This document shows positions 17,932-26,375 of a stretch of 35,530 bases of DNA, one piece after another; position 1 is the stretch's first letter, and every line of letters starts with the position of its first letter. This DNA is from a virus. The stretch covers positions 1-35,530 of IMG/VR virus record IMGVR_UViG_3300044971_000892; one strand, 5' to 3'. The notes beneath the pieces were generated by a model that was not told where the DNA came from, searched no databases, and worked only from the letters and a program-made list of their open reading frames with translations. The translations under genes were made by a program, and so were the position numbers.

Positions 17932-18422
17932 TTGCCGTCCTCCTTGAAGCAGTCCCAATCCATGCGAACGGCATATTGCTGCGGACTACACGGCGGAAAC
18001 ACGATGCACTCCGCTTCCATCTCGCAGATTCTCCGCCTCGCCTCGTCGCGCTCGGCGCGGAGCGTGTCACACAGGGCACACATCGCGGCAAGTTCAGCGC
18101 GCACATCGCGGCGCGTGCTTCCATTGGTCTCGCTTGGCATGGATTCACGCCAGACCCGGGCAAGTCGATTGGAGCGGGTGGCGCGGCGGCCTTCAGTAAC
18201 GATCAAGTTCCTCCGCATCAACCAGTTCACCGCCGCGGAGCAGGTCTGGTGCGTCAACCCATGACGCTGTTCAAGTTCATCACAAGTGCTTGGGCACTCG
18301 CGTATTGACTGCAACAGCATCAAGGCAACGGTGGGCCGGGAAGCAACAGCGGACTCAAACGCGAGATCCTGTGTCTCCCAGCGCGTTTCTTGCTTGCGGG
18401 TTCGTCGGGGGAAGTCAGGCAT
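17928..18422 (-). CDS. Winged-helix protein fused to ERDEAR/WDC module
   Basis: A 164-residue protein. Residues about 30-85 are a winged helix (VALMLLQSIRECPSTCDELE, GLTHQTCSAAVNWLMRRNLI, then a basic wing), so DNA binding is likely. A second helical part (VRAELAAMCALCDTLRAERD then EARRRICEME) and the tail AVRMDWDCFKEDGK follow, paralogous to the downstream gene. The ATG has ACAGGAG seven bases upstream. It may be a regulator whose C-terminal module binds a partner shared with its neighbour. Confidence 0.68.
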   Translation of the reverse strand: MPDFPRRTRKQETRWETQDLAFESAVASRPTVALMLLQSIRECPSTCDELEQRHGLTHQTCSAAVNWLMRRNLIVTEGRRATRSNRLARVWRESMPSETNGSTRRDVRAELAAMCALCDTLRAERDEARRRICEMEAECIVFPPCSPQQYAVRMDWDCFKEDGK

Positions 18423-18672
18423 CGTAGGCTCCTGTGACAGGCATTGACAGGCGAGGCACGCGACTCACGCGCACCGTTGTCGGTGCCACGATTCGGAGTC
18501 GGGCCTTCTTCAAGGCGGCTCCGCATCGGCATGGCTTGAGGCCAGAGGCCAGTTCTACGAACACGGTTGTCGTATCACCGTTCGGAAGTGCAAAGGTCAA
18601 CTGCACGGCCTCTGCGTCACTCGCGTCATTGACCCGCACGGTCAACACCAGATTCCCATAGGGGTCACTCAT
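18415..18672 (-). CDS. Small beta-rich protein, unknown
   Basis: An 85-residue protein with a beta-rich N-terminus (GNLVLTVRVNDASDAEAVQL, TFALPNGDTTTVFVEL) and a short C-R-C motif (LKPCRCGAAL) near residue 49 before a basic C-terminus. It overlaps both neighbours by eight bases (ATGAGTGA type upstream), as in a tightly coupled operon. No family is recognised. Confidence 0.62.
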   Translation of the reverse strand: MSDPYGNLVLTVRVNDASDAEAVQLTFALPNGDTTTVFVELASGLKPCRCGAALKKARLRIVAPTTVRVSRVPRLSMPVTGAYDA

Positions 18673-19015
18673 CGAAATCTCCGTTCAAGGTGTCAATGAG
18701 TTCGTGGGTCAGGCCCGCCATCAAGACAGCGCCAAAGAGTTCTTTCGCGGCAGATGCAGGCATCTCCTGATACGGGGCGTAGCAGATCAATTCCCATGCA
18801 GAGTCAGCAACGCTCGGCACGCGCATCAAGATGCGGGCACTCAAGCGCCACTTTTGCCGAGTGGTGCCGTCTATCGTCAGAATCTCATGGCAGGCGTGCG
18901 TTTCTAGGGCGACCATCGCATCATCGGGCGAGTGCAAGCGAGCCTGCTCGTCCAAGATTGCGCGGTCAGCATCAGTAACAGTGACCCGTTTGGGGGTGGC
19001 GTTCAAGAAGCCCAT
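18665..19015 (-). CDS. Unknown protein of minus operon
   Basis: A 116-residue protein with an N-terminal helix (VTVTDADRAILDEQARLHSP) and a beta-rich middle (LTIDGTTRQKWRLSARILMR). The C-terminus is helical (AAKELFGAVLMAGLTHELID). The start at 19015 is chosen because AAGGAG lies seven bases upstream, directly after a hairpin of the type found in the repeated leaders. Longer readings would begin inside that hairpin. Function unknown. Confidence 0.65.
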   Translation of the reverse strand: MGFLNATPKRVTVTDADRAILDEQARLHSPDDAMVALETHACHEILTIDGTTRQKWRLSARILMRVPSVADSAWELICYAPYQEMPASAAKELFGAVLMAGLTHELIDTLNGDFDE

Positions 19016-19046
19016 GTCAATCTCCTTCGGCTTGCATCCGGCAAGC
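19016..19046 (-). promoter_or_regulatory. Promoterless single-hairpin leader (copy D)
   Basis: On the minus strand GCTTGC-CGGAT-GCAAGC (19046-19030) forms a six-pair stem with the same CGGAT loop as hairpin 2 of the full modules, followed by AAGGAGATTGAC and ATG. The stem differs from CCTGC/GCAGG but stays paired, so pairing rather than sequence is conserved. No operator or -35/-10 is seen here, so it appears to act at the RNA level inside an operon. Confidence 0.7.
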
Positions 19047-19075
19047 GCGGCCAGCAAATCATTCGCTGGGTCGGA

Positions 19076-19333
19076 TTAGTCCATCTCAATGGGGTGCCCT
19101 GCCATCCAAGGCGGGGCGCAATCAGCGCGCTCAACGGGCGCGGCTTGCGGGAGGCGTGCCAAATCCCACGCCTTCTCAAAGGCGTTGATGTCTGCAAGCA
19201 CCTGCGTCGCTACCTCAACACTCGCGCCAGCGGCGCGGCGCGTTTCAATGTGCAGGCGCATTGCATCTCGCAGGACCGGGCAGGCGCACCACATCTTGTC
19301 TACCGTAGCATTCAAGCGCATCTCGTTGCTCAT
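19076..19333 (-). CDS. Small helical protein, unknown
   Basis: An 85-residue protein that is mainly helical (DAMRLHIETRRAAGASVEVA, TQVLADINAFEKAWDLARLP) with cysteines near residues 16, 18 and 71. The ATG at 19333 follows a full repeated promoter-leader module (copy A), whose AGGAGA is at the right distance; an upstream in-frame ATG lies within the leader's hairpins and is rejected. It is the first gene of the long minus-strand operon. Function unknown. Confidence 0.68.
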   Translation of the reverse strand: MSNEMRLNATVDKMWCACPVLRDAMRLHIETRRAAGASVEVATQVLADINAFEKAWDLARLPQAAPVERADCAPPWMAGHPIEMD

Positions 19334-19422
19334 TGTCAGTCTCCTTGTCCTGCATCCGGCAGGCTCGGGCACCGCATCTTGCGGCGCTCATAGAGTCTAC
19401 CCCCGATCAGCCGGGAGTGCAA
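19334..19422 (-). promoter_or_regulatory. Promoter-operator-twin-hairpin leader, copy A
   Basis: The -35 is TTGCAC (19422-19417) and the -10 is TAGACT (19399-19394), with 17 bases between. The spacer holds TCCCG-GCTGAT-CGGGG, one mismatch from the CCCCG-N6-CGGGG consensus. The leader has hairpin 1 (CCGC-AAGAT-GCGG) and hairpin 2 (CCTGC-CGGAT-GCAGG), then AAGGAGA and the ATG at 19333. It drives the minus operon downstream. Confidence 0.85.
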
Positions 19423-19431
19423 GTGGCAGTG

Positions 19432-19683
19432 TTACGATTTCTGCGCAGGTTGAATCTTGCACAGGTCTTGGATCCGCTTGGCCTCGCGGGTCAAGGCCGC
19501 AGCCCGCTCAATCAGGTCGCTGGCATTCAACCAAGCGGCATTGAGGAAGTCCTCGTCAGCGGTCGTTGAGCCACACTTGCTCAACTGCGTCAGCGTCACA
19601 CCCAGACGCGCGGTCGCGTCAATGATGTCGCTGCGGATCTTGCGGATGCTGGCCTGCGTGGCGGTGATTTCGGTGCGGGTCAC
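19432..19683 (-). CDS. Small helical protein, unknown
   Basis: An 83-residue protein, almost entirely helical (QASIRKIRSDIIDATARLGV, TLTQLSKCGSTT, LIERAAALTREAKRIQDLCK), so it probably forms a coiled coil or helical bundle. The GTG start overlaps the stop of its upstream neighbour as GTGA. Its stop sits ten bases before the -35 of copy A. No family is recognised. Confidence 0.65.
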   Translation of the reverse strand: MTRTEITATQASIRKIRSDIIDATARLGVTLTQLSKCGSTTADEDFLNAAWLNASDLIERAAALTREAKRIQDLCKIQPAQKS

Positions 19684-19943
19684 TTGCTGTCCTTTCGCTT
19701 GGCCGCCGCATACGCCTTCGCAGCCCGCTCGGCGCGGCGAATGTATTCCCAGCGGTCGCTGCTGCCAATCTCGTACAACTCGCCGATACGGTCAACCACT
19801 TCATCCACGGCGGCGTTGATCGCCTCAATGCCGCACTGCATCAGCAGGGCGACTCCATCGGGGTTGTAGGCAAAGTGGTGGTACAGAATTCCGCTCACAG
19901 CCTCTTGCGAACTAGTCAGGCGGCGGTCATTGGTCATGCTCAT
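19680..19943 (-). CDS. Small helical protein, unknown
   Basis: An 87-residue protein, first gene of a two-gene unit behind module copy B. It reads SSQEAVSGILYHHFAYNPDG, then AINAAVDEVVDRIGELYEIG and a basic C-terminus (YIRRAERAAKAYAAAKRKDS). The ATG at 19943 is eight bases after AGGAGA. A second in-frame ATG two codons later is equally possible. The basic helical tail could contact nucleic acid, but this is only a suggestion. Confidence 0.66.
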   Translation of the reverse strand: MSMTNDRRLTSSQEAVSGILYHHFAYNPDGVALLMQCGIEAINAAVDEVVDRIGELYEIGSSDRWEYIRRAERAAKAYAAAKRKDSK

Positions 19944-20032
19944 CGGTCAGTCTCCTAGCCCTGCATACGGCAGGTTCGGTGGCCGCATCTTGCGGCGCTC
20001 GTTGATTCTACCCCCGATCAAACGGGGCGCAA
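19944..20032 (-). promoter_or_regulatory. Promoter-operator-twin-hairpin leader, copy B
   Basis: The -35 is TTGCGC (20032-20027) and the -10 TAGAAT (20010-20005), with a 16-base spacer containing CCCCG-TTTGAT-CGGGG (the first C is shared with the -35). The leader has hairpin 1 GCCGC-AAGAT-GCGGC and hairpin 2 CCTGC-CGTAT-GCAGG, then AGGAGACTGACCG and ATG. The loop of hairpin 2 has lost its GGA. Confidence 0.87.
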
Positions 20033-20036
20033 GTCG

Positions 20037-20297
20037 TTACGCAGCATTCGGGGAAATATTCTTGTCTTTCTGCTGAAGCATCTCCACGGCTCGCGTGGCT
20101 TCGCGCAGCGTCGCGTGGTCATCAATGCAAGTCCACGCATCCCAGACATCTCCCGGCAGCGCAAGATTGGTTCGCCTGTTCACCGTCCAGCGGCGCGCGC
20201 CACGGTCGCCAAACTCCCGGCAGACCATGTACACACTGGAGGCAAGGCCCACGCCGCTCACATACAGCAGGACTCCGTTGAGGCGCACGCGCTTCAC
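20037..20297 (-). CDS. Small basic protein, unknown
   Basis: An 86-residue protein with a beta-rich start (RVRLNGVLLYVSGVGLASSV) and a basic centre (REFGDRGARRWTVNRRTNLA). It has two tryptophans in GDVWDAWTCIDDHATLREAT and a helical end. The GTG start overlaps the upstream stop. It is the second gene behind module copy C. The pattern resembles small phage proteins of unknown role; I assign none. Confidence 0.63.
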   Translation of the reverse strand: MKRVRLNGVLLYVSGVGLASSVYMVCREFGDRGARRWTVNRRTNLALPGDVWDAWTCIDDHATLREATRAVEMLQQKDKNISPNAA

Positions 20298-20476
20298 GCT
20301 GCACCTCCTTCCTGCCAGATGGTGCCGCCCCGTCGGCGCAGCAGGTCTTCTGCCCGCTCGCGGCGCACGCCGTACTCGGCGCGCCAGCCGTCCTCGCTAC
20401 GCCAGTTCCAGTCCCGATCCGGGCCAAGCATCGCGTCAGCAATCAGCCGCATCCGGTCAAGTTCAGCGTCAGTCAT
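20294..20476 (-). CDS. Very small acidic/basic protein, unknown
   Basis: A 60-residue protein (DAELDRMRLIADAMLGPDRD, WNWRSEDGWRAEYGVRRERA, then EDLLRRRGGTIW). The W-N-W-R and DGW-RAEYGVRR motifs suggest a compact helical domain. It sits behind module copy C with AGGAGA nine bases before the ATG. It overlaps the next gene by four bases. Function unknown. Confidence 0.62.
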   Translation of the reverse strand: MTDAELDRMRLIADAMLGPDRDWNWRSEDGWRAEYGVRRERAEDLLRRRGGTIWQEGGAA

Positions 20477-20563
20477 GGCAGTCTCCTACTCCTGCGTCCG
20501 GCAGGCGCGGTGGCCGCATCTTGCGGCGCTCATATAGAGTAGCACATCCCGTCGTTGAAGCAA
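20477..20563 (-). promoter_or_regulatory. Promoter with twin-hairpin leader but no operator, copy C
   Basis: The -35 is TTGCTT (20563-20558) and the -10 TACTCT (20541-20536), 16 bases apart. The leader is complete: hairpin 1 GCCGC-AAGAT-GCGGC, hairpin 2 CCTGC-CGGAC-GCAGG, then AGGAGACTGCC and ATG. The spacer (CAACGACGGGATGTGC) lacks the CCCCG-N6-CGGGG palindrome, so this copy should escape control at that site while keeping the RNA-level signal. Confidence 0.8.
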
Positions 20564-20594
20564 GTGGTGCAGTGCATCAATCTTGCGAGATTGA

Positions 20595-21053
20595 TTAGAT
20601 TTCTTTTCGCTTGCGGCGCAGGAAGTCAACGGCAATCGCCAGAGTGCGCTCTCGGTTCAAGAACGGGAACCGCTGGCGTGCCAGCCGGATCTCTTCCGGC
20701 GTTGCCGTGATCATGATTTCGGCGGCCCAGCGATCCCATTCAGCCAACTCGGCATCAGTGGGCGGCTGCGCGCGGTCGATCACTTTGCGCGTCTGGACAA
20801 GCATCTGCTTCTGTTGCGTGCGCTCTATGTAGAGGTCATTGATCCGGTTGTAGACCGGGCGGCCCGCCTTCTCCGCAGCAGCCTCCATGCGGTGCTGCTT
20901 GATCGCGTCTTGCAACTTGTCTTGATACAGTCCTTCCCAGCGATCCCAGAGCCATTTGATGGTCTGGGGAGTCGGCTTCCACTCGGGCCACAGGCCCAAG
21001 ATCATCTGCCAAGTCTCATGCCATTTCGGTATCGGGGGTGGTGGTGGCTTCAT
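20595..21053 (-). CDS. Helical basic protein, possible replication/helicase-loader role
   Basis: A 152-residue protein. It starts MKPPPPPIPKWHETWQMI and continues WPEWKPTPQTIKWLWDRWEG and LYQDKLQDAIKQHRMEAAAE, a tryptophan-rich helical layout like that of small phage helicase loaders (W-x2-L ... Y/W-x2-L-x3-L-x4-L-x2-A-I-x2-H). The C-terminus is basic and helical (ARQRFPFLNRERTLAIAVDF then LRRKRKEI). The resemblance is weak. The start at 21053 is preferred because it sits just after a -10 box; an upstream ATG at 21122 lies in a terminator-like hairpin. It is the first gene of the minus arm. Confidence 0.6.
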   Translation of the reverse strand: MKPPPPPIPKWHETWQMILGLWPEWKPTPQTIKWLWDRWEGLYQDKLQDAIKQHRMEAAAEKAGRPVYNRINDLYIERTQQKQMLVQTRKVIDRAQPPTDAELAEWDRWAAEIMITATPEEIRLARQRFPFLNRERTLAIAVDFLRRKRKEI

Positions 21054-21089
21054 GGCGCGGGACTCTAACGAGCGATTCCGCGAATGCAA
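21054..21089 (-). promoter_or_regulatory. Promoter for the first minus-strand gene, leaderless
   Basis: TTGCAT (21089-21084) and TAGAGT (21067-21062) are 16 bases apart. The start codon at 21053 is eight bases after the -10, so the expected transcript begins within about two bases of the ATG, and no Shine-Dalgarno site is possible. The spacer contains GCG-GAAT-CGC rather than the CCCCG-N6-CGGGG operator of the module promoters. Confidence 0.65.
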
Positions 21090-21099
21090 GTCCCCAAAG

Positions 21100-21129
21100 A
21101 AAAACCGCTGATGCTTTCGCAATCAGCGG
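21100..21129 (-). terminator. Hairpin with T-run on minus strand
   Basis: CCGCTGAT and ATCAGCGG (21129-21122 and 21112-21105) form an eight-pair stem around a nine-base loop, followed on the minus strand by TTTTTCTTT. It would stop minus-strand transcription arriving from the divergent region, insulating the promoter at 21054-21089. Confidence 0.75.
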
Positions 21130-21533
21130 CGTTTGCTCTTGCGCTCCACCGGGATGCCAGTAGAGTGCGCGGCGGCTATTCCTAGAGCGTTTGCATTCTA
21201 CCGCTCAAGTGTCTGGGGAGAAGCGGTGCGCCGCATGAATGCTGCAATGGCCCCTCGGCACGGTTGGGGGGGATCTGTAGTGCTTGTCGCGGGATCTGAC
21301 CCTACCCCGCGCCGCCATGCGGCTGTCTGCATGACGCGCTCCCTAGAGGTGGAGGCGGCTGGAACGACCAGCGAAATGGTGGAAACCTCTACAAGGCGAA
21401 GGACGCGGCTCCGTTGGGCTGATCTTTGCGCATGGCCCGAGCAGGGTCATGCTCTGCTACCGCCCACCATTGAACTGGAACAGCCCCGCCGCAGATAGCG
21501 CGAAAAAAGATTGCCCGAATTGCGGCAAGCCTA
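21130..21533. other. Divergent intergenic region between the two early arms
   Basis: About 400 bases between the minus-strand terminator and the -35 of module copy E. It contains no convincing long gene: open frames in it (for example a plus frame at 21133-21498) have arginine-rich, atypical translations. There is a candidate mini-gene near its end. This is the largest gene-poor stretch and is flanked by divergent early promoters, a common position for a replication origin or regulatory region, but no iterons or AT-rich element were recognised. Confidence 0.5.
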
Positions 21534-21568
21534 TTGCCACCCCGAGGATTCGGGGTTACAGTATGTGA
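21449..21568 (+). CDS. Candidate mini-gene with CPNCGKPI zinc-knuckle motif
   Basis: An ATG at 21449 opens 39 codons ending KKDCPNCGKPIATPRIRGYS and M before TGA at 21566. The C-P-N-C-G-K-P motif is half of a zinc ribbon. GCAGGG lies just upstream of the ATG. It overlaps the -35, operator and -10 of module copy E, which is unusual. The frame is open upstream to about 21350, so the piece could be a remnant of a longer zinc-finger protein. Weakly supported. Confidence 0.3.
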   Translation: MLCYRPPLNWNSPAADSAKKDCPNCGKPIATPRIRGYSM

Positions 21569-21624
21569 GTGCTGCAAGACGCAGTGCCCGAGCCTGCCGG
21601 ACGCAGGGCATAGGAGATTGACCG
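21534..21624 (+). promoter_or_regulatory. Promoter-operator-twin-hairpin leader, copy E
   Basis: The -35 is TTGCCA (21534-21539) and the -10 TACAGT (21557-21562), with a 17-base spacer holding CCCCG-AGGATT-CGGGG. The leader has hairpin 1 CTGC-AAGAC-GCAG and hairpin 2 CCTGC-CGGAC-GCAGG, then AGGAGATTGACCG and the ATG at 21625. It starts the plus-strand early arm. Confidence 0.87.
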
Positions 21625-22650
21625 ATGCATGAGATTCGCAAGAATGATGGGCTGGTGCTGGCCGAGAACGCGGCATGGCACGGACTTGGAACCGTGGTGG
21701 CCTCTGCCCCGAATCCGTTTGCCGCTCTGCGGCTGGCGAACATGGAGTGGCAGGTGCTTGAGTCTGACGCGCTGGCTGGCACCTTCAACAGCGACAGCAA
21801 CGATCCGCGCCGGGTGATCACCGGAACGCACAAGATGCTGGTGCGTAGTGATGACTACTCCATGCTGGGCGTGGTGGGCACGGATTACAGCCCCGTCCAG
21901 AATGAAACGCTGGCAGAACTGGCCTACGCCTTCCGTAAGGCTGGCGAGGATGTTGGCGTTGAGGTTGAGTCAGCGGGCAGCATTCGCGGGGGCCGCCGAG
22001 TGTGGATGCTGCTGCGGGGTCCTAGCGTTGACATGACCGGACGGGATGACATGGCGCATCCCTACTTGATGCTTGCCAACTCCCATGACGGAACGATGGC
22101 GCTGCGCGTGCTGCCGACGAGCGTGCGAGTCGTGTGCAGCAATACCTTCCATGCCGCGATCAACAGTGAGCGCAAGGCTTGGGCCTTCCGGCACACCCAC
22201 AACATCTCCAACCGGATTGAAGACCTGAAGGTGGACATTGACCGCTGGTACAAGACCATCGACACCGGGCGGCAGGAAGCGGTGCGCATGGCTGCGACTG
22301 CGGTGAACCGGGAAACCGTCCGTAATCTGTGGACGGATGTGCTGACCCGCCTTGATGGCGAGATCCCCAGCAATCCCAAGACGGGCTGGGAAGAGCGCAA
22401 GAAGGAGCGTGCCGTGGAGTTCCTTGCGCACTGCGCCCAGACCTTTGACAGCGAGGGCGGGCGCTACGGGTACAACGCATGGACGGCGGTGAACGCGGCG
22501 ACCAACGCGATTCAACACTACCGAGCAGGCAAGGCTCTGCGCAGCGCCCGCCACGACAGGCAGGCGATGGCGTATGCTGCATGGGACGGTGCTACGGCTG
22601 ACGCGACGGCAGAAGCCTTCGCCGCCGCCTACGACACGCTGCTGAAGTGA
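21625..22650 (+). CDS. DUF932-family phage/plasmid protein
   Basis: A 341-residue protein of the DUF932 (TIGR03299-type) family found on phages and plasmids. The recognisable parts are the N-terminal AAWHGLGTVV motif, the middle GTDYSPVQNETLAELAYAFR and SAGSIRGGRRVWMLLRGPSV, and LPTSVRVVCSNTFHAAINS, all highly characteristic. Its biochemical function is not established; it is often found with recombination genes, as here. It is alone between module copy E and a terminator, so it forms a single-gene transcript. AGGAGA lies eight bases before the ATG. Confidence 0.93.
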   Translation: MHEIRKNDGLVLAENAAWHGLGTVVASAPNPFAALRLANMEWQVLESDALAGTFNSDSNDPRRVITGTHKMLVRSDDYSMLGVVGTDYSPVQNETLAELAYAFRKAGEDVGVEVESAGSIRGGRRVWMLLRGPSVDMTGRDDMAHPYLMLANSHDGTMALRVLPTSVRVVCSNTFHAAINSERKAWAFRHTHNISNRIEDLKVDIDRWYKTIDTGRQEAVRMAATAVNRETVRNLWTDVLTRLDGEIPSNPKTGWEERKKERAVEFLAHCAQTFDSEGGRYGYNAWTAVNAATNAIQHYRAGKALRSARHDRQAMAYAAWDGATADATAEAFAAAYDTLLK

Positions 22651-22671
22651 GGCCATCCAAGCCCCCGGAAG

Positions 22672-22708
22672 CCTGCCCGGTGACTGAAAAGTCCCGGGCA
22701 GGTTTTCA
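22672..22708 (+). terminator. Intrinsic terminator after DUF932 gene
   Basis: CCTGCCCGG (22672-22680) and CCGGGCAGG (22694-22702) form a nine-pair GC-rich stem, extended inside by GACT/AGTC around a short loop, followed by TTTTCATT. It ends the DUF932 transcript before the next promoter. Confidence 0.88.
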
Positions 22709-22728
22709 TTGAAATGCGCCCATGCGAC

Positions 22729-22818
22729 TTGCGCCCCCGGCAGATCGGGGGTAGAATCACGGAGTGCTGCAAGATGCAGCGCCCGAGCCTGCCGGATGCA
22801 GGGACAGGAGATTGCCTG
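22729..22818 (+). promoter_or_regulatory. Promoter-operator-twin-hairpin leader, copy F
   Basis: The -35 is TTGCGC (22729-22734) and the -10 TAGAAT (22752-22757), with a 17-base spacer carrying CCCCG-GCAGAT-CGGGG. The leader has hairpin 1 GCTGC-AAGAT-GCAGC and hairpin 2 CCTGC-CGGAT-GCAGG, then ACAGGAGATTGCCTG and the ATG at 22819. Confidence 0.9.
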
Positions 22819-23130
22819 ATGAGCCAGATAGTGCAGATGACCCGATCCGTGCGCCTGTGGGATTCCCTGCTCCGCGAGGTTGACGGGAGCCGCGAACGAG
22901 CGGCAATGCTCTTTGATTCCAGCATGGATCAACTGGTGACAGATGGGTGCAAGGAATCCAAGAGAGCGATGCGCATCGCGGAACTGTGCCGCAAGGCAGA
23001 GGCGCAGGAGATTCGGCGCTACTGGCGTGAGTACCAGCAGCATCGGGCAAGCATGAGCGAGGAGGAATGGGATGCGGAAGCCCTAATCGCTGAACAGCAG
23101 AGCGTCTACTTCGGCGGGCTGGGCGTTTGA
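22819..23130 (+). CDS. Small helical protein, unknown
   Basis: A 103-residue protein, helical throughout (RSVRLWDSLLREVDGSRERA, KRAMRIAELCRKAEAQEIRR, then YWREYQQHRASMSEEEWDAE). It stands alone between module copies F and G. An earlier in-frame ATG at 22714 is rejected because it would run through the promoter and leader. Function unknown; the helix-rich charged composition would fit a small DNA- or protein-binding early protein. Confidence 0.68.
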   Translation: MSQIVQMTRSVRLWDSLLREVDGSRERAAMLFDSSMDQLVTDGCKESKRAMRIAELCRKAEAQEIRRYWREYQQHRASMSEEEWDAEALIAEQQSVYFGGLGV

Positions 23131-23167
23131 TGGCGCAGAAAATCTCCGCGAAATACACCCCAGCCAC

Positions 23168-23259
23168 TTGCGCCCCCGAGTAATCGGGGGTATCATCAAT
23201 GAGCGCCAGCCGGATGCTGGTGCCCGAGCCTGCCGGACGCAGGAACAGGAGACTGACTG
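23168..23259 (+). promoter_or_regulatory. Promoter-operator-twin-hairpin leader, copy G
   Basis: The -35 is TTGCGC (23168-23173) and the -10 TATCAT (23191-23196), 17 bases apart, with CCCCG-AGTAAT-CGGGG in the spacer (seven-base half-sites, the best palindrome of the set). Hairpin 1 here is CCAGC-CGGAT-GCTGG (23206-23220), different in both strands of the stem and in its loop from the other copies. Hairpin 2 is CCTGC-CGGAC-GCAGG (23229-23243). AGGAGA at 23247-23252 precedes the ATG at 23260. Confidence 0.9.
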
Positions 23260-23568
23260 ATGACTACGGCGAAGACTTACATTGTGGCGACGCAGGTGCG
23301 CGAGAACTACGGAGCGCACGATTGGGATGGCACTGGCGAATGCCCGCAGTATTGGAAGTTCAAGGGCGGCCACGACTATCGGGTGCAAGCGGATTCCTTG
23401 GAGTCCGCGATGCAGATTGTGCAGCAGAAGCACGGTAGGAAGGACAACTACTACGAGGAGTATGTCATTGACGGGCAGCCGCAAGCGGACTTCGACGCGG
23501 CTCTTGCCACGCTAGACCAAGAAGCGCGGGAGTTCTTCAAGGGCAGGGTCATTGAGGTGGCGGCCTGA
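23260..23568 (+). CDS. Conserved small phage protein, unknown
   Basis: A 102-residue protein. The N-terminal half is distinctive: YIVATQVRENYGAHDWDGTG then ECPQYWKFKGGHDYRV. The pattern (Q-V-R-E-N-Y-G-A-H) plus (D-G-x-G-x-C-P-Q-Y-W-K) recurs in uncharacterised proteins of other phages, as I recall. The C-terminus is helical (AALATLDQEAREFFKGRVIE). It heads a three-gene unit with the ERF and Gp157-like genes. Function unknown; the unit suggests recombination or early DNA metabolism. Confidence 0.72.
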   Translation: MTTAKTYIVATQVRENYGAHDWDGTGECPQYWKFKGGHDYRVQADSLESAMQIVQQKHGRKDNYYEEYVIDGQPQADFDAALATLDQEAREFFKGRVIEVAA

Positions 23569-23585
23569 CCGCAAGGAGCAACGAC

Positions 23586-24401
23586 ATGGAAACGAGCGAA
23601 CACATCGGCGCGATCGCTGGAGCCTTGGCGAAAGCGCATCTCAAGATTGAGAACCCTGAACTGGATGGGCAGAACCCGCACTACAAGAGCAGGTTTAGCA
23701 CGCTGGCGGCGGTCCTGAACGCAGTAAGGAAGCCCCTCGCCGAGCAGGGGATTGCACTGCTCCAGTCCGTGGCGCTGGAAGACGGCAAGGTGAGGGTGAC
23801 CACGAACCTAGTGCATTCATCCGGTGAGTGGATGCGGGAAACGATGGCGTTCCCGCTGCAAGGAAATGCCACGGTCCAGCAGGCCGGATCGACGGTGACC
23901 TATCTCCGCAGATACTCCCTGATTTCGCTGTGTGGGATTGTGGGGGACCCGCATCAAGACGATGACGGGGAGGCGGACGCAGCGGCGCGCGAGGAAAGCA
24001 AGCCAGTCCGTGCGGCCCCGATTCCGCGAAAGGAGGTCAAGCAGGAGCGCCCCCGGCGAGAGGAGCCGCCAAGCCAGCGCGAGGAAGTCAAGCAGGAGGC
24101 GGCCCCGGCAGTGCCGGACAAGTTCCCCGATGATGGCGAGTTCCTCGTGACCATCAAGCGAGTGGTTCGAAGGCAGGGCCGAAAGACGGCGGTGCAGGTA
24201 GAGAGCGCTGAGCATGGGCTGTGCTGGGTCTCCACGATGGTGGATGGCTATGCGGACTTCTTGCAAGAACGGGTGAATGAGCAGATGACGCTGGGTCTGC
24301 AGAGGCAGGGCGTTGCGATGGAACTGACCCACATCCGTTCAGCGGCGGCTGCGGTGAAGCAGCCTGTGATTGAAGCGACCAAGGAAGAACTCCCATTCTG
24401 A
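23586..24401 (+). CDS. erf: ERF-family single-strand annealing protein
   Basis: A 271-residue phage recombinase of the ERF superfamily, which anneals complementary single strands and serves recombination-dependent replication, end joining or circularisation. The diagnostic parts are IGAIAGALAKAHLKIENPEL, HYKSRFSTLAAVLNAVRKPL, GIALLQSV and QQAGSTVTYLRRYSLISLCG (about residues 95-120). The C-terminal half (about 130-185) is charged and disordered. It then ends in a small beta-rich domain of unknown role (FLVTIKRVVRRQGRKTAVQV). Ribosome site AAGGAGC. The gene symbol is used by homology, not because the product has been tested. Confidence 0.9.
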   Translation: METSEHIGAIAGALAKAHLKIENPELDGQNPHYKSRFSTLAAVLNAVRKPLAEQGIALLQSVALEDGKVRVTTNLVHSSGEWMRETMAFPLQGNATVQQAGSTVTYLRRYSLISLCGIVGDPHQDDDGEADAAAREESKPVRAAPIPRKEVKQERPRREEPPSQREEVKQEAAPAVPDKFPDDGEFLVTIKRVVRRQGRKTAVQVESAEHGLCWVSTMVDGYADFLQERVNEQMTLGLQRQGVAMELTHIRSAAAAVKQPVIEATKEELPF

Positions 24402-24411
24402 AAGGGACACG

Positions 24412-24921
24412 ATGAGTCTGTACGCGATTGACATGGAGATGCAGGCTGTCTTGGATGCCATGCTGGACGGTGGCGTAGACAGCCCCGAGGCGATGGAGGC
24501 CCTGAACCAGCATCTGGCGGGCTTGGAATCCATGCTGCACCAGAAGGCGGAGAAGTACGCGTCTTTGATCCGCGAGTTGGAGGTGCGTTCCAAGGCCCGT
24601 GCAGAGGAAGCGGCGCGAATCAGGGCGCTAGCAACCGTTGACGGGAACCTCGCAACGCGACTCAAAGAGCGGCTGAAGGAGGTCATGGAGCGCACTGGCA
24701 CGACCCGAATTGAGACTCACCTCTTCCGGCTGTCGGTGGCAGCGAACGGCGGCAAGCAGCCGATGACCATTGAGGAAACGGCGGTGCCGGAACTGCCAAA
24801 GGAATTCACTGTCACTACGGTGGAGCCTGACCGCGAGCGCATCCGTGCTGCGCTAGAATCCGGCATGATGATTCCCGGCTGCACCTTGCTCCCGCGAGGA
24901 ACCAGCCTGCGAATCAAGTAA
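24412..24921 (+). CDS. Siphovirus Gp157-like protein
   Basis: A 169-residue protein matching the Gp157 family of phages. The N-terminal half is helical (MEALNQHLAGLESMLHQKAE then KYASLIRELEVRSKARAEEA). The C-terminal half is the characteristic segment LKEVMERTGTTRIETHLFRL, SVAANGGKQPM and ELPKEFTV, then a repeat-like EPDRERIRAALESG ending IPGCTLLPRGTSLRIK. The family has been associated with phage resistance in lactic streptococci, but its mechanism is not known. Here it follows ERF, a frequent pairing. The ATG at 24412 has AAAGGGA upstream; an earlier in-frame ATG overlaps the ERF gene and is rejected. Confidence 0.88.
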   Translation: MSLYAIDMEMQAVLDAMLDGGVDSPEAMEALNQHLAGLESMLHQKAEKYASLIRELEVRSKARAEEAARIRALATVDGNLATRLKERLKEVMERTGTTRIETHLFRLSVAANGGKQPMTIEETAVPELPKEFTVTTVEPDRERIRAALESGMMIPGCTLLPRGTSLRIK

Positions 24922-24934
24922 CCGCCCATCTTGA

Positions 24935-25012
24935 CTCGCCAGAAATGGCGAGCCAGTCTCCCCCCGCGCACTTGGCCCCCACGACGGAAGGCCCGTGCGC
25001 GGGGGTTTTCTT
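24935..25012 (+). terminator. Hairpin with GAAA loop plus strong intrinsic terminator
   Basis: CTCGCCA-GAAA-TGGCGAG (24935-24952) is a seven-pair hairpin with a GNRA tetraloop, just after the Gp157-like gene. It is followed by CCCCCGCGCAC (24961-24971) pairing with GTGCGCGGGGG (24995-25005) and the run TTTTCTTTTC. The second is a strong terminator for the 23260-24921 unit. The first could stabilise the 3' end of the message. Confidence 0.9.
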
Positions 25013-25044
25013 TTCATCTTTCGTAGAAAGACGGGCCAATGGAC

Positions 25045-25133
25045 TTGCGCCCCGTTTGATCGGGGGTACTCTATAGGGGTGCCGCAAGATGCGGTGCCCG
25101 AGCCTGCCGGACGCAGGAACAGGAGACTGACTG
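25045..25133 (+). promoter_or_regulatory. Promoter-operator-twin-hairpin leader, copy H
   Basis: The -35 is TTGCGC (25045-25050) and the -10 TACTCT (25067-25072), 16 bases apart, with CCCCG-TTTGAT-CGGGG (first C shared with the -35), the same operator as copy B. Hairpin 1 is GCCGC-AAGAT-GCGGT and hairpin 2 CCTGC-CGGAC-GCAGG. The ACAGGAGACTGACTG before the ATG is the same as in copy G. Confidence 0.9.
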
Positions 25134-25418
25134 ATGAGAACCAAGGCATATACGGAGTGCGGGAATCTAGGGTGGAAGATGGCGAAGGACGCGGCTGCCT
25201 TGCGCAAGGCCATGATGGACTTCGCGGATGAGCAGCAGGTGCTGCAGGAGGTGCTGGCTGAACTGCAAGGAGTGTGTCCAACGGCGGCCCAGCGTATGAG
25301 CGTGGCGGACTGCGAGTCGCGTTTGATTCGGCTTGCCAACCGGATTGAGGATCTCGCGACGGGGTTGAGCGCAAGCGCCATTGAGGTCCGCACGGTACTG
25401 AACGGAGGCGAACTGTGA
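25134..25418 (+). CDS. Helical protein, unknown
   Basis: A 94-residue protein, mainly helical (LGWKMAKDAAALRKAMMDFA, DEQQVLQEVLAELQGVCPTA, then MSVADCESRLIRLANRIEDL). It heads a three-gene unit with overlapping starts (25134, 25415, 25792). The heptad-like leucines suggest self-association. No family is recognised. Confidence 0.65.
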   Translation: MRTKAYTECGNLGWKMAKDAAALRKAMMDFADEQQVLQEVLAELQGVCPTAAQRMSVADCESRLIRLANRIEDLATGLSASAIEVRTVLNGGEL

Positions 25419-26076: not shown

Positions 26077-26111
26077 TTGCGGCCCCCGACTTGCCGGGGT
26101 AAGATGCAGTC
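26077..26111 (+). promoter_or_regulatory. Operator-containing leaderless promoter, copy I
   Basis: The -35 is TTGCGG (26077-26082), the -10 TAAGAT (26100-26105), and the 17-base spacer holds CCCCG-ACTTGC-CGGGG. The ATG at 26112 lies just six bases after the -10, so the expected transcription start coincides with the start codon. The twin-hairpin leader and Shine-Dalgarno site of the other copies are absent. Confidence 0.82.
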
Positions 26112-26375
26112 ATGCGGCCACGACGGGTCAAAGAACCTGCAGATATCCGTGACACCATCCTGAAGGAACTGCAGCGGGTCAACAAGACCCGCTACCGTTT
26201 CGCCGTGGAGTGCGTGGCGGCGGGAATCTGCCAGCATCACACGGTAGACGAACTACTCGCATCAACGGACAGCAAGCGGAGCCCGTCACTGCCCAAGGCG
26301 ATCGCGCTGCTTGACGCAGCGGGGCTGGAACTCGTCATTCGAAGCAAGGAAAGGAAGCAGCGGCATGAAGATTGA
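26112..26375 (+). CDS. Small repressor-like helix-turn-helix protein, leaderless
   Basis: An 87-residue basic protein. An N-terminal helix (DIRDTILKELQRVNKTRYRF) is followed by AVECVAAGICQHHTVDELLA as a likely helix-turn-helix. A helix with PSLPKAIALLDAAGLELVIR then matches the last helix of XRE-type repressor domains, which often reads L-x-x-(I/L)-L-x-A-L-G-L-E-L. Its own promoter contains the CCCCG-N6-CGGGG palindrome, and it appears leaderless, as is lambda cI from PRM. It is the best candidate for the regulator of the whole module set, binding its own operator too. Its last 11 bases overlap the next gene. Assignment is by fold pattern and context. Confidence 0.62.
   Translation: MRPRRVKEPADIRDTILKELQRVNKTRYRFAVECVAAGICQHHTVDELLASTDSKRSPSLPKAIALLDAAGLELVIRSKERKQRHED

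Follow-up and report, generated by a model that had tools for sequence, protein, structure and literature searches.

The window analysed here, the whole of the 35,530-base IMG/VR record IMGVR_UViG_3300044971_000892, comes from a tailed phage and contains genes for a major head protein, a tape measure protein, terminase and portal. Between positions 19,013 and 25,136 it carries eight copies (A to H) of an RNA leader, an element of about 55 nucleotides (nt) with two successive hairpins that forms the 5′ side of AGGAGA and an ATG, which it directly adjoins. Seven of the copies (A, B, C, E, F, G and H) lie downstream of a sigma-70-like promoter, and leader D is promoterless because it follows gene A within an operon. 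Judging from their kind (an ERF recombinase, a Gam-like protein and small proteins of no recognized function) and from their place, the genes under the leaders appear to be early genes.

A loop-based pattern combined with a protein search led to relatives on three further IMG/VR contigs. One, G001 (IMGVR 3300036770_002143, L231), is a very close relative of the window phage; the other two, G002 (3300036978_000205, L232) and G003 (3300044623_000555, L234), encode ERF proteins about 55% identical to that of the window and have a guanine-cytosine content near 50%, against 62%. A covariance model (R2) built from 18 copies detects 26 in the four phage contigs (eight in the window, and seven, six and five in the others), all scoring at least 44.6 bits, and nothing further below E 1. 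Eight of the 26 lay outside the training set, and all copies end at the start codon (ATG) of an open reading frame.

Anatomy of the two hairpins

Across the 26 copies, hairpin 1 usually has 7–8 base pairs (bp) and a loop of the form A(A/U)GAY, and hairpin 2 has 4–6 bp and the loop CGGAY. The initial annotation had placed seven two-hairpin leaders where we find them and had read their first hairpins correctly as CTGC-AAGAY-GCAG (E and F), CCGC-AAGAT-GCGG (A, B, C and H) and CCAGC-CGGAT-GCTGG (G). The stem lengths of 4–5 bp given there needed correction to 7–8 bp, as in leader F (GUGCUGC-AAGAU-GCAGCGC), except in B and C, which retain 5 bp because their two outermost pairs are disrupted. It had also described D as a promoterless single hairpin: promoterless it is, but the hairpin at 19030-19046 (GCTTGC-CGGAT-GCAAGC) is the second of two, preceded by a 7-bp hairpin 1 with wholly different stem letters (CCAGCGA-AUGAU-UUGCUGG).

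The loops and the linker are far more constant than the stems. Loop 2 is CGGAY in 25 of the 26 copies; leader B of the window, with CGTAT, departs from the CGGAY loop originally ascribed to all seven leaders, and the other six have it. Loop 1 is mainly AAGAY, with AUGAY, CGGAU (copy G), AAGAUU and AGAU as variants, the last two once or twice. Both loops are thus variants of a single motif, N-R/U-G-A-Y, closed by a C-G pair, and in copy G of the window phage and of G001 the loop-2 sequence CGGAT sits on hairpin 1. A CCG linker follows the hairpin-1 stem immediately in 26/26 copies, at 6–7 nt from loop 2 irrespective of stem length. Searched with up to three mismatches, the hairpin-2 motif has six matches in the window and none in 100 shuffles, which excludes a chance origin.

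Four leaders of one phage (L232 3880, 4419, 5035 and 7392) have identical hairpin-1 stems, which suggests that leader cassettes were recently duplicated or underwent gene conversion.

Covariation supports a selected RNA fold

Compensatory changes in the stems had been taken as the mark of a selected RNA structure, and the homologues bear this out, since relatives retain the fold while its letters change. Paired cells make up 93.9% of the 18-copy alignment, compared with 83.3% after shuffling and at most 61% when the partners are slid along the alignment; two-sided changes occur at five pairs (shuffled mean 2.9), and the covariation, which grew stronger once homologues were added, scores 0.377 against 0.178 for shuffled alignments. 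The near-ungapped 26-copy alignment, arranged manually to follow the structure, shows how far the stems have turned over. Pair 4 of hairpin 1 is CG in 15 copies, AU in 7 and GC in 4, and is never unpaired; pair 3 is CG in 18, UA in 4, and GC, AU, GU and unpaired in one each; pair 1 is CG in 23, AU in 2 and unpaired in one. In hairpin 2, pair 4 (CG 22, UA 4), pair 3 (UA 18, CG 8) and pair 2 (GC 24, CG 2) are each paired in 26/26 copies.

Per-sequence counts of this kind overstate the number of events, because four of the G002 copies share one hairpin-1 stem. Two analyses allow for this. The first is a self-written, R-scape-like tree-aware null, in which each substitution on a branch is moved to a column drawn at random among those with the same base; it was applied to 23 distinct sequences on a neighbour-joining tree of the leader itself, with 150 simulated alignments and column pairs at least 4 apart. 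The top four of all column pairs are stem pairs: for hairpin-1 pairs 3 and 4 no null value was as high in the 150 alignments, and hairpin-2 pairs 3 and 4 have E of about 0.05 and about 1, respectively. The second, a parsimony reconstruction, counts 14 paired-to-paired double changes across eight stem pairs. On this sequence evidence, selection on the two-hairpin RNA fold itself is well supported.

Placement on the message

Transcription is expected to start (+1) about 7 nt after the −10 element. In 20 of the 24 promoter-borne copies, 7 nt separate the end of the −10 element from the 7-bp stem of hairpin 1; the other four have 5, 6 or 8 nt. The message should therefore begin with a paired base, and the base of the stem is predicted to lie at or within 2 nt of +1 in 24/24. 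At the other end, hairpin 2 stops 4–7 nt before GGAGA in all copies.

The leader by itself neither hides nor opens the Shine-Dalgarno site, because the mean unpaired probability of that site is 0.60 in the leaders and 0.62 when the upstream part is shuffled (33 nt of coding sequence included in both). A riboswitch- or thermometer-type leader that masks or frees the ribosome site is unsupported by these values, which cover the unliganded RNA, and no alternative fold that hides the site was found.

In most G002 and G003 copies, ATG-TGA or ATG-TAA begins just before hairpin 1 and runs into it, forming a start-stop codon pair at the predicted +1; this is not so in the window.

Promoter and leader occur separately

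The window leader promoters follow the form TTGNNN-16/17-TANNNT and carry between their −35 and −10 elements a palindrome, CCCCCG-N4-ATCGGGGG, which has seven matches in the window, including one overlapping pair, where 0.3 are expected, and is degraded in promoter C. In most G002 and G003 copies it reads CCCCG-N4-ATCGGTG. This palindrome is a DNA-level feature distinct from the leader, presumably the operator of a repressor.

The two layers come apart in both directions: leader D has no promoter, and a promoter-operator at 26077, with its orthologues in all three relatives, has no leader (in G003 the palindrome lacks its left half). The leader is thus not a passive appendage of the promoter, since the two are separable. 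Beyond the leaderless promoter stands a gene for an 87-amino-acid (aa) protein, and in four of four phages its −10-to-ATG distance puts the predicted +1 at the A of the ATG or 1–2 nt before it. By eye, the protein is a candidate small helix-turn-helix regulator, which neither profile hidden Markov models nor a structural model confirm. That it represses the leader regulon is only a guess, because its Pfam and PHROGs matches are weak and conflicting and its model is poor. The features of the window are collected in Table 1.

Table 1. Leaders, promoters and associated genes in the window
Feature	Position	Strand	Description
Promoter A	19394..19422	−	TTGCAC-17-TAGACT; CTCCCG-N4-ATCGGGGG palindrome in spacer
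Leader A	19331..19387	−	Predicted +1 at 19387, then hairpin 1, CCG, hairpin 2, AGGAGA, ATG 19333-19331; R2 83.1 bits
Gene after leader A	19076-19333	−	85 aa
Leader D	19013..19069	−	Operon-internal, no promoter; both hairpins, AAGGAGA, ATG 19015; R2 50.8 bits
Gene after leader D	18665-19015	−	116 aa
Gene downstream in A/D operon	18415-18672	−	85 aa; CxC and basic tail
Promoter B	20005..20032	−	TTGCGC-16-TAGAAT with palindrome
Leader B	19941..19998	−	Loop 2 CGTAT; hairpin 1 of 5 bp; R2 73.2 bits
Gene after leader B	19680-19943	−	87 aa
Promoter C	20536..20563	−	TTGCTT-16-TACTCT; palindrome degraded
Leader C	20474..20529	−	R2 72.1 bits
Gene after leader C	20294-20476	−	60 aa
Conserved stretch, candidate small RNA	21085-21385	−	About 300 nt
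Promoter E	21534..21562	+	TTGCCA-17-TACAGT with CCCCG-N4-TTCGGGG
Leader E	21569..21627	+	R2 75.4 bits
Gene after leader E	21625-22650	+	DUF932 protein (Pfam PF06067)
Promoter F	22729..22757	+	TTGCGC-17-TAGAAT; perfect CCCCCG/CGGGGG palindrome
Leader F	22764..22821	+	R2 78.6 bits
Gene after leader F	22819-23130	+	103 aa
Promoter G	23168..23196	+	TTGCGC-17-TATCAT with palindrome
Leader G	23203..23262	+	Hairpin 1 of 8 bp with loop CGGAT, as loop 2; R2 72.0 bits
Operon after leader G	23260-24921	+	102-aa gene, ERF recombinase (PF04404), Gam-like (phrog_253)
Promoter H	25045..25072	+	TTGCGC-16-TACTCT with palindrome
Leader H	25079..25136	+	R2 82.7 bits
Gene after leader H	25134-25418	+	94 aa
Promoter-operator without leader	26077..26105	+	TTGCGG-17-TAAGAT; predicted +1 is A of ATG 26112; kept in G001-G003
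87-aa protein gene	26112..26375	+	Candidate regulator; predicted leaderless messenger RNA (mRNA)

Distribution and neighbouring features

Within the four phages the leader has a regulon-like distribution, and leader D has a counterpart in G001 that is likewise operon-internal (L231 2823-2881). Beyond them its distribution is narrow. The best R2 match elsewhere, on contig L022, reaches 31.2 bits, and the other pattern matches on viral contigs, at or below that score, look coding, lack hairpin 1 or, in L254, have it poorly paired. Some 1.25 megabases of further DNA, chosen for carrying the loop motif, gave an R2 maximum of 28.8 bits. The pattern used to scan genome contigs was too loose and returned chance matches, the best of them, at 28.8 bits, lying, by eye, inside a nuoA-like coding region. 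The window has no match in Rfam 15 at the gathering score, in line with the earlier impression that no named family has this structure. DNA searches gave no match in plasmids and, in INPHARED, nothing beyond chance-level matches and a short match in coding sequence of phage C48C1. Protein scans with the ERF and a 152-aa protein return only the three known relatives, and Methylophilaceae phage P19250A, the nearest phage by ERF protein, lacks the leader. The literature searched, with incomplete coverage, contains no description of such a leader.

Three sites bear some resemblance to single hairpins of the leader. In L020 (7066-7124) and L021 (314-365), a different phage gene is preceded by ACCTGC-CGGAT-GCAGGT (with C for the last T in L021) and then AAGGAGA-N5-ATG; this single-hairpin site scores 25–28.5 bits and is either a relative or a chance match. 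L254 (9779-9839, minus strand; R2 16.8 bits) has a 6-bp hairpin, GCCGCA-CGGAC-TGCGGC, between CCG and AGGAGA, and may likewise be a distant relative or a chance match.

Two other conserved features lie near the leaders. The stretch at 21085-21385 separates the divergent early units and shows strong conservation across the four phages (L231 4365-4665, L232 6530-6840, L234 1055-1355). It is not coding, because it differs among phages by 1- to 4-nt insertions and deletions. It ends in an intrinsic-terminator-like hairpin with a covarying stem, shows two-sided changes in 11 of 66 consensus pairs and has no Rfam match, and we regard it as a candidate phage small RNA. Base pairing between it and the leader is not clearly above that of shuffled sequences. 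The 85-aa protein encoded downstream in the A/D operon is kept in the four phages and has no family match.

A proposed cis-acting element of an early regulon

The leader probably controls the use of its messages; its role as a regulator is inferred. Our preferred interpretation, held tentatively and at slightly less than an even chance, is that it represents a new RNA element, acting in cis, that marks an early regulon under repressor control and combines a 5′-protecting hairpin with twin loops bound by one factor. A family of sigma-70-type promoters with a common palindromic operator, presumably under a repressor, would produce transcripts that begin at, or 1–2 nt from, the first base of hairpin 1. 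With the 5′ end held within a stem, pyrophosphate removal and 5′-end-dependent RNase attack would be blocked and the mRNA would last longer; 5′-terminal hairpins are known to impede RppH and to stabilize mRNA (PMC3997798). The twin loops and CCG may be bound by a single factor, the simplest candidate being an RNA-binding protein encoded by phage or host, since the loops and CCG are conserved while the stems vary. Bound beside the ribosome site, such a factor could set the translation or decay of the whole regulon jointly.

Several observations weigh against this interpretation. Predicted access to the Shine-Dalgarno site does not differ from that in shuffled leaders, so the fold alone neither masks nor frees it. 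An RNA-binding protein was not found among the conserved small proteins, which have no family match and poor models (those that AlphaFold gave for the 85-aa and 87-aa proteins, with predicted local distance difference test scores of 53 and 57, are unusable). Where the outer pairs of the first stem are broken, as in B, C and a small number of other copies, about 2 nt at the 5′ end would be left unpaired and protection would be weaker. In D, which has no nearby promoter, hairpin 1 would not be 5′-terminal unless the operon RNA is processed there.

A simpler account makes the leader a passive 5′ stabilizer and ribosome-site spacer with no loop-binding factor. It would be content with a hairpin 1 that starts at or beside the predicted +1, as 5′-terminal stabilizers do (PMC3997798), and with the narrow range of spacing before GGAGA. 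However, a stabilizer needs no specific loop, and near-invariant loops and CCG beside stems that turn over are left unexplained, as is the interchange of loops 1 and 2 in copy G; we consider this account unlikely.

The nascent two-hairpin RNA could instead bind RNA polymerase directly and cause it to ignore terminators, as in phage HK022, whose putL site has the same layout of two successive hairpins just past an early promoter (PMC9378689). HK022 put RNA binds the zinc-binding domain of the polymerase β′ subunit and suppresses termination. Terminator-like sites do stand between the units here, for example at 24986-25011 and, by eye, at 22672-22708. Yet put sites, at about 70 nt, combine long stems with a bulge and an RNA triplex, where the leader has about 40 nt and short plain stems; R2 finds no match in HK022, the units are mostly short, with a promoter each, and the strict coupling to AGGAGA-ATG favours a function in the mRNA. 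Antitermination of this kind thus seems quite improbable.

A little more doubtful still is an H-type pseudoknot, in which CCG pairs with the CGG of loop 2 to give a compact fold next to the ribosome site that acts directly on the ribosome or senses a ligand. The constancy of CCG (26/26), of CGG (25/26) and of the distance between CCG and the loop at any stem length fits such a fold. That same invariance means that no covariation bears on it; leader B (CGU) breaks one pair without compensation, and the lack of an alternative fold hiding the ribosome site also speaks against it.

If the leaders were Csr/Rsm-type sites, host or phage CsrA/RsmA would repress translation of the regulon by binding the GGA of the loops and of the ribosome site. 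GGA is indeed present in nearly all second loops and in AGGAGA, and a variable stem under a conserved loop is typical of Csr sites, but sites bound with high affinity have an ANGGAX hexaloop (PMC4005645). The leader's second loop is instead a pentaloop, CGGAY, that lacks the A, and its first loop carries AGA or UGA in place of GGA in 24/26 copies, which makes this reading very improbable. Least credible is a DNA-level origin of the inverted repeats, as protein-binding or recombination sites or as copies of a duplicated promoter cassette: the promoters do carry a DNA palindrome and several G002 copies have the same hairpin-1 stem, which suggests that the cassette was duplicated or converted, yet this explanation is disfavoured by covariation and separability, since stem changes are compensated across genomes while the non-palindromic loops, the orientation and the distance to the ribosome site and start codon stay constant, and promoter and leader each occur alone.

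A wider version of the preferred interpretation, of an early regulon marked by a factor-bound leader, would make the leader a new multi-copy class of phage regulatory RNA, with twin loops read by a dedicated factor and a candidate regulator gene that escapes through its leaderless mRNA; we offer this as a possibility with rather less confidence. If true, the phage would gain a second, RNA-level switch over its whole repressor-controlled early regulon. Binding of the loops by a protein would make this a phage RNA regulon and the leader a ready-made, portable 5′ leader, and the separable promoter and predicted leaderless candidate regulator allow the two control layers to be tested independently.

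Comparison with known systems

Structured leaders are known on single phage messages. One conserved fold, backed by covariation, that recurs at the start of most of a phage's early transcription units is unusual and is in no library that we searched. In layout the leader resembles putL and putR of HK022, where two adjacent hairpins lie near the start of an early phage transcript, as they do here; putL stands just downstream of its promoter (PMC9378689). The put elements have about 70 nt, long stems and a triplex, and each genome has one putL and one putR, whereas the leader spends about 40 nt on both hairpins (7–8 bp and 4–6 bp, with no bulge), is fused to a ribosome site and occurs in 5–8 copies per contig. 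R2 gave no match up to E 10 in HK022 (NC_002166).

In cluster K mycobacteriophages, start-associated and extended start-associated sequences recur before many small genes, and thus resemble the leader as a motif repeated within one phage and tied to translation starts; for the extended sequences, the authors saw little support for an mRNA hairpin (PMC3203893). The leader differs in its covariation-backed RNA pairing and in the promoter before every copy but D. With the 5′-terminal stabilizing hairpins of ompA, papA and bla with an added 5′ hairpin (PMC3997798), it shares a stem placed on, or very close to, the transcription start, here a predicted one; it differs in having a second conserved hairpin and in recurring as related copies whose loops are conserved. 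High-affinity Csr/Rsm targets, which present an ANGGAX loop atop a stem (PMC4005645), resemble it in combining a variable stem with a conserved purine-rich loop near the ribosome site, with GGA in hairpin 2; the loops of the leader are not of the ANGGAX form, and hairpin 1 lacks GGA in 24/26 copies.

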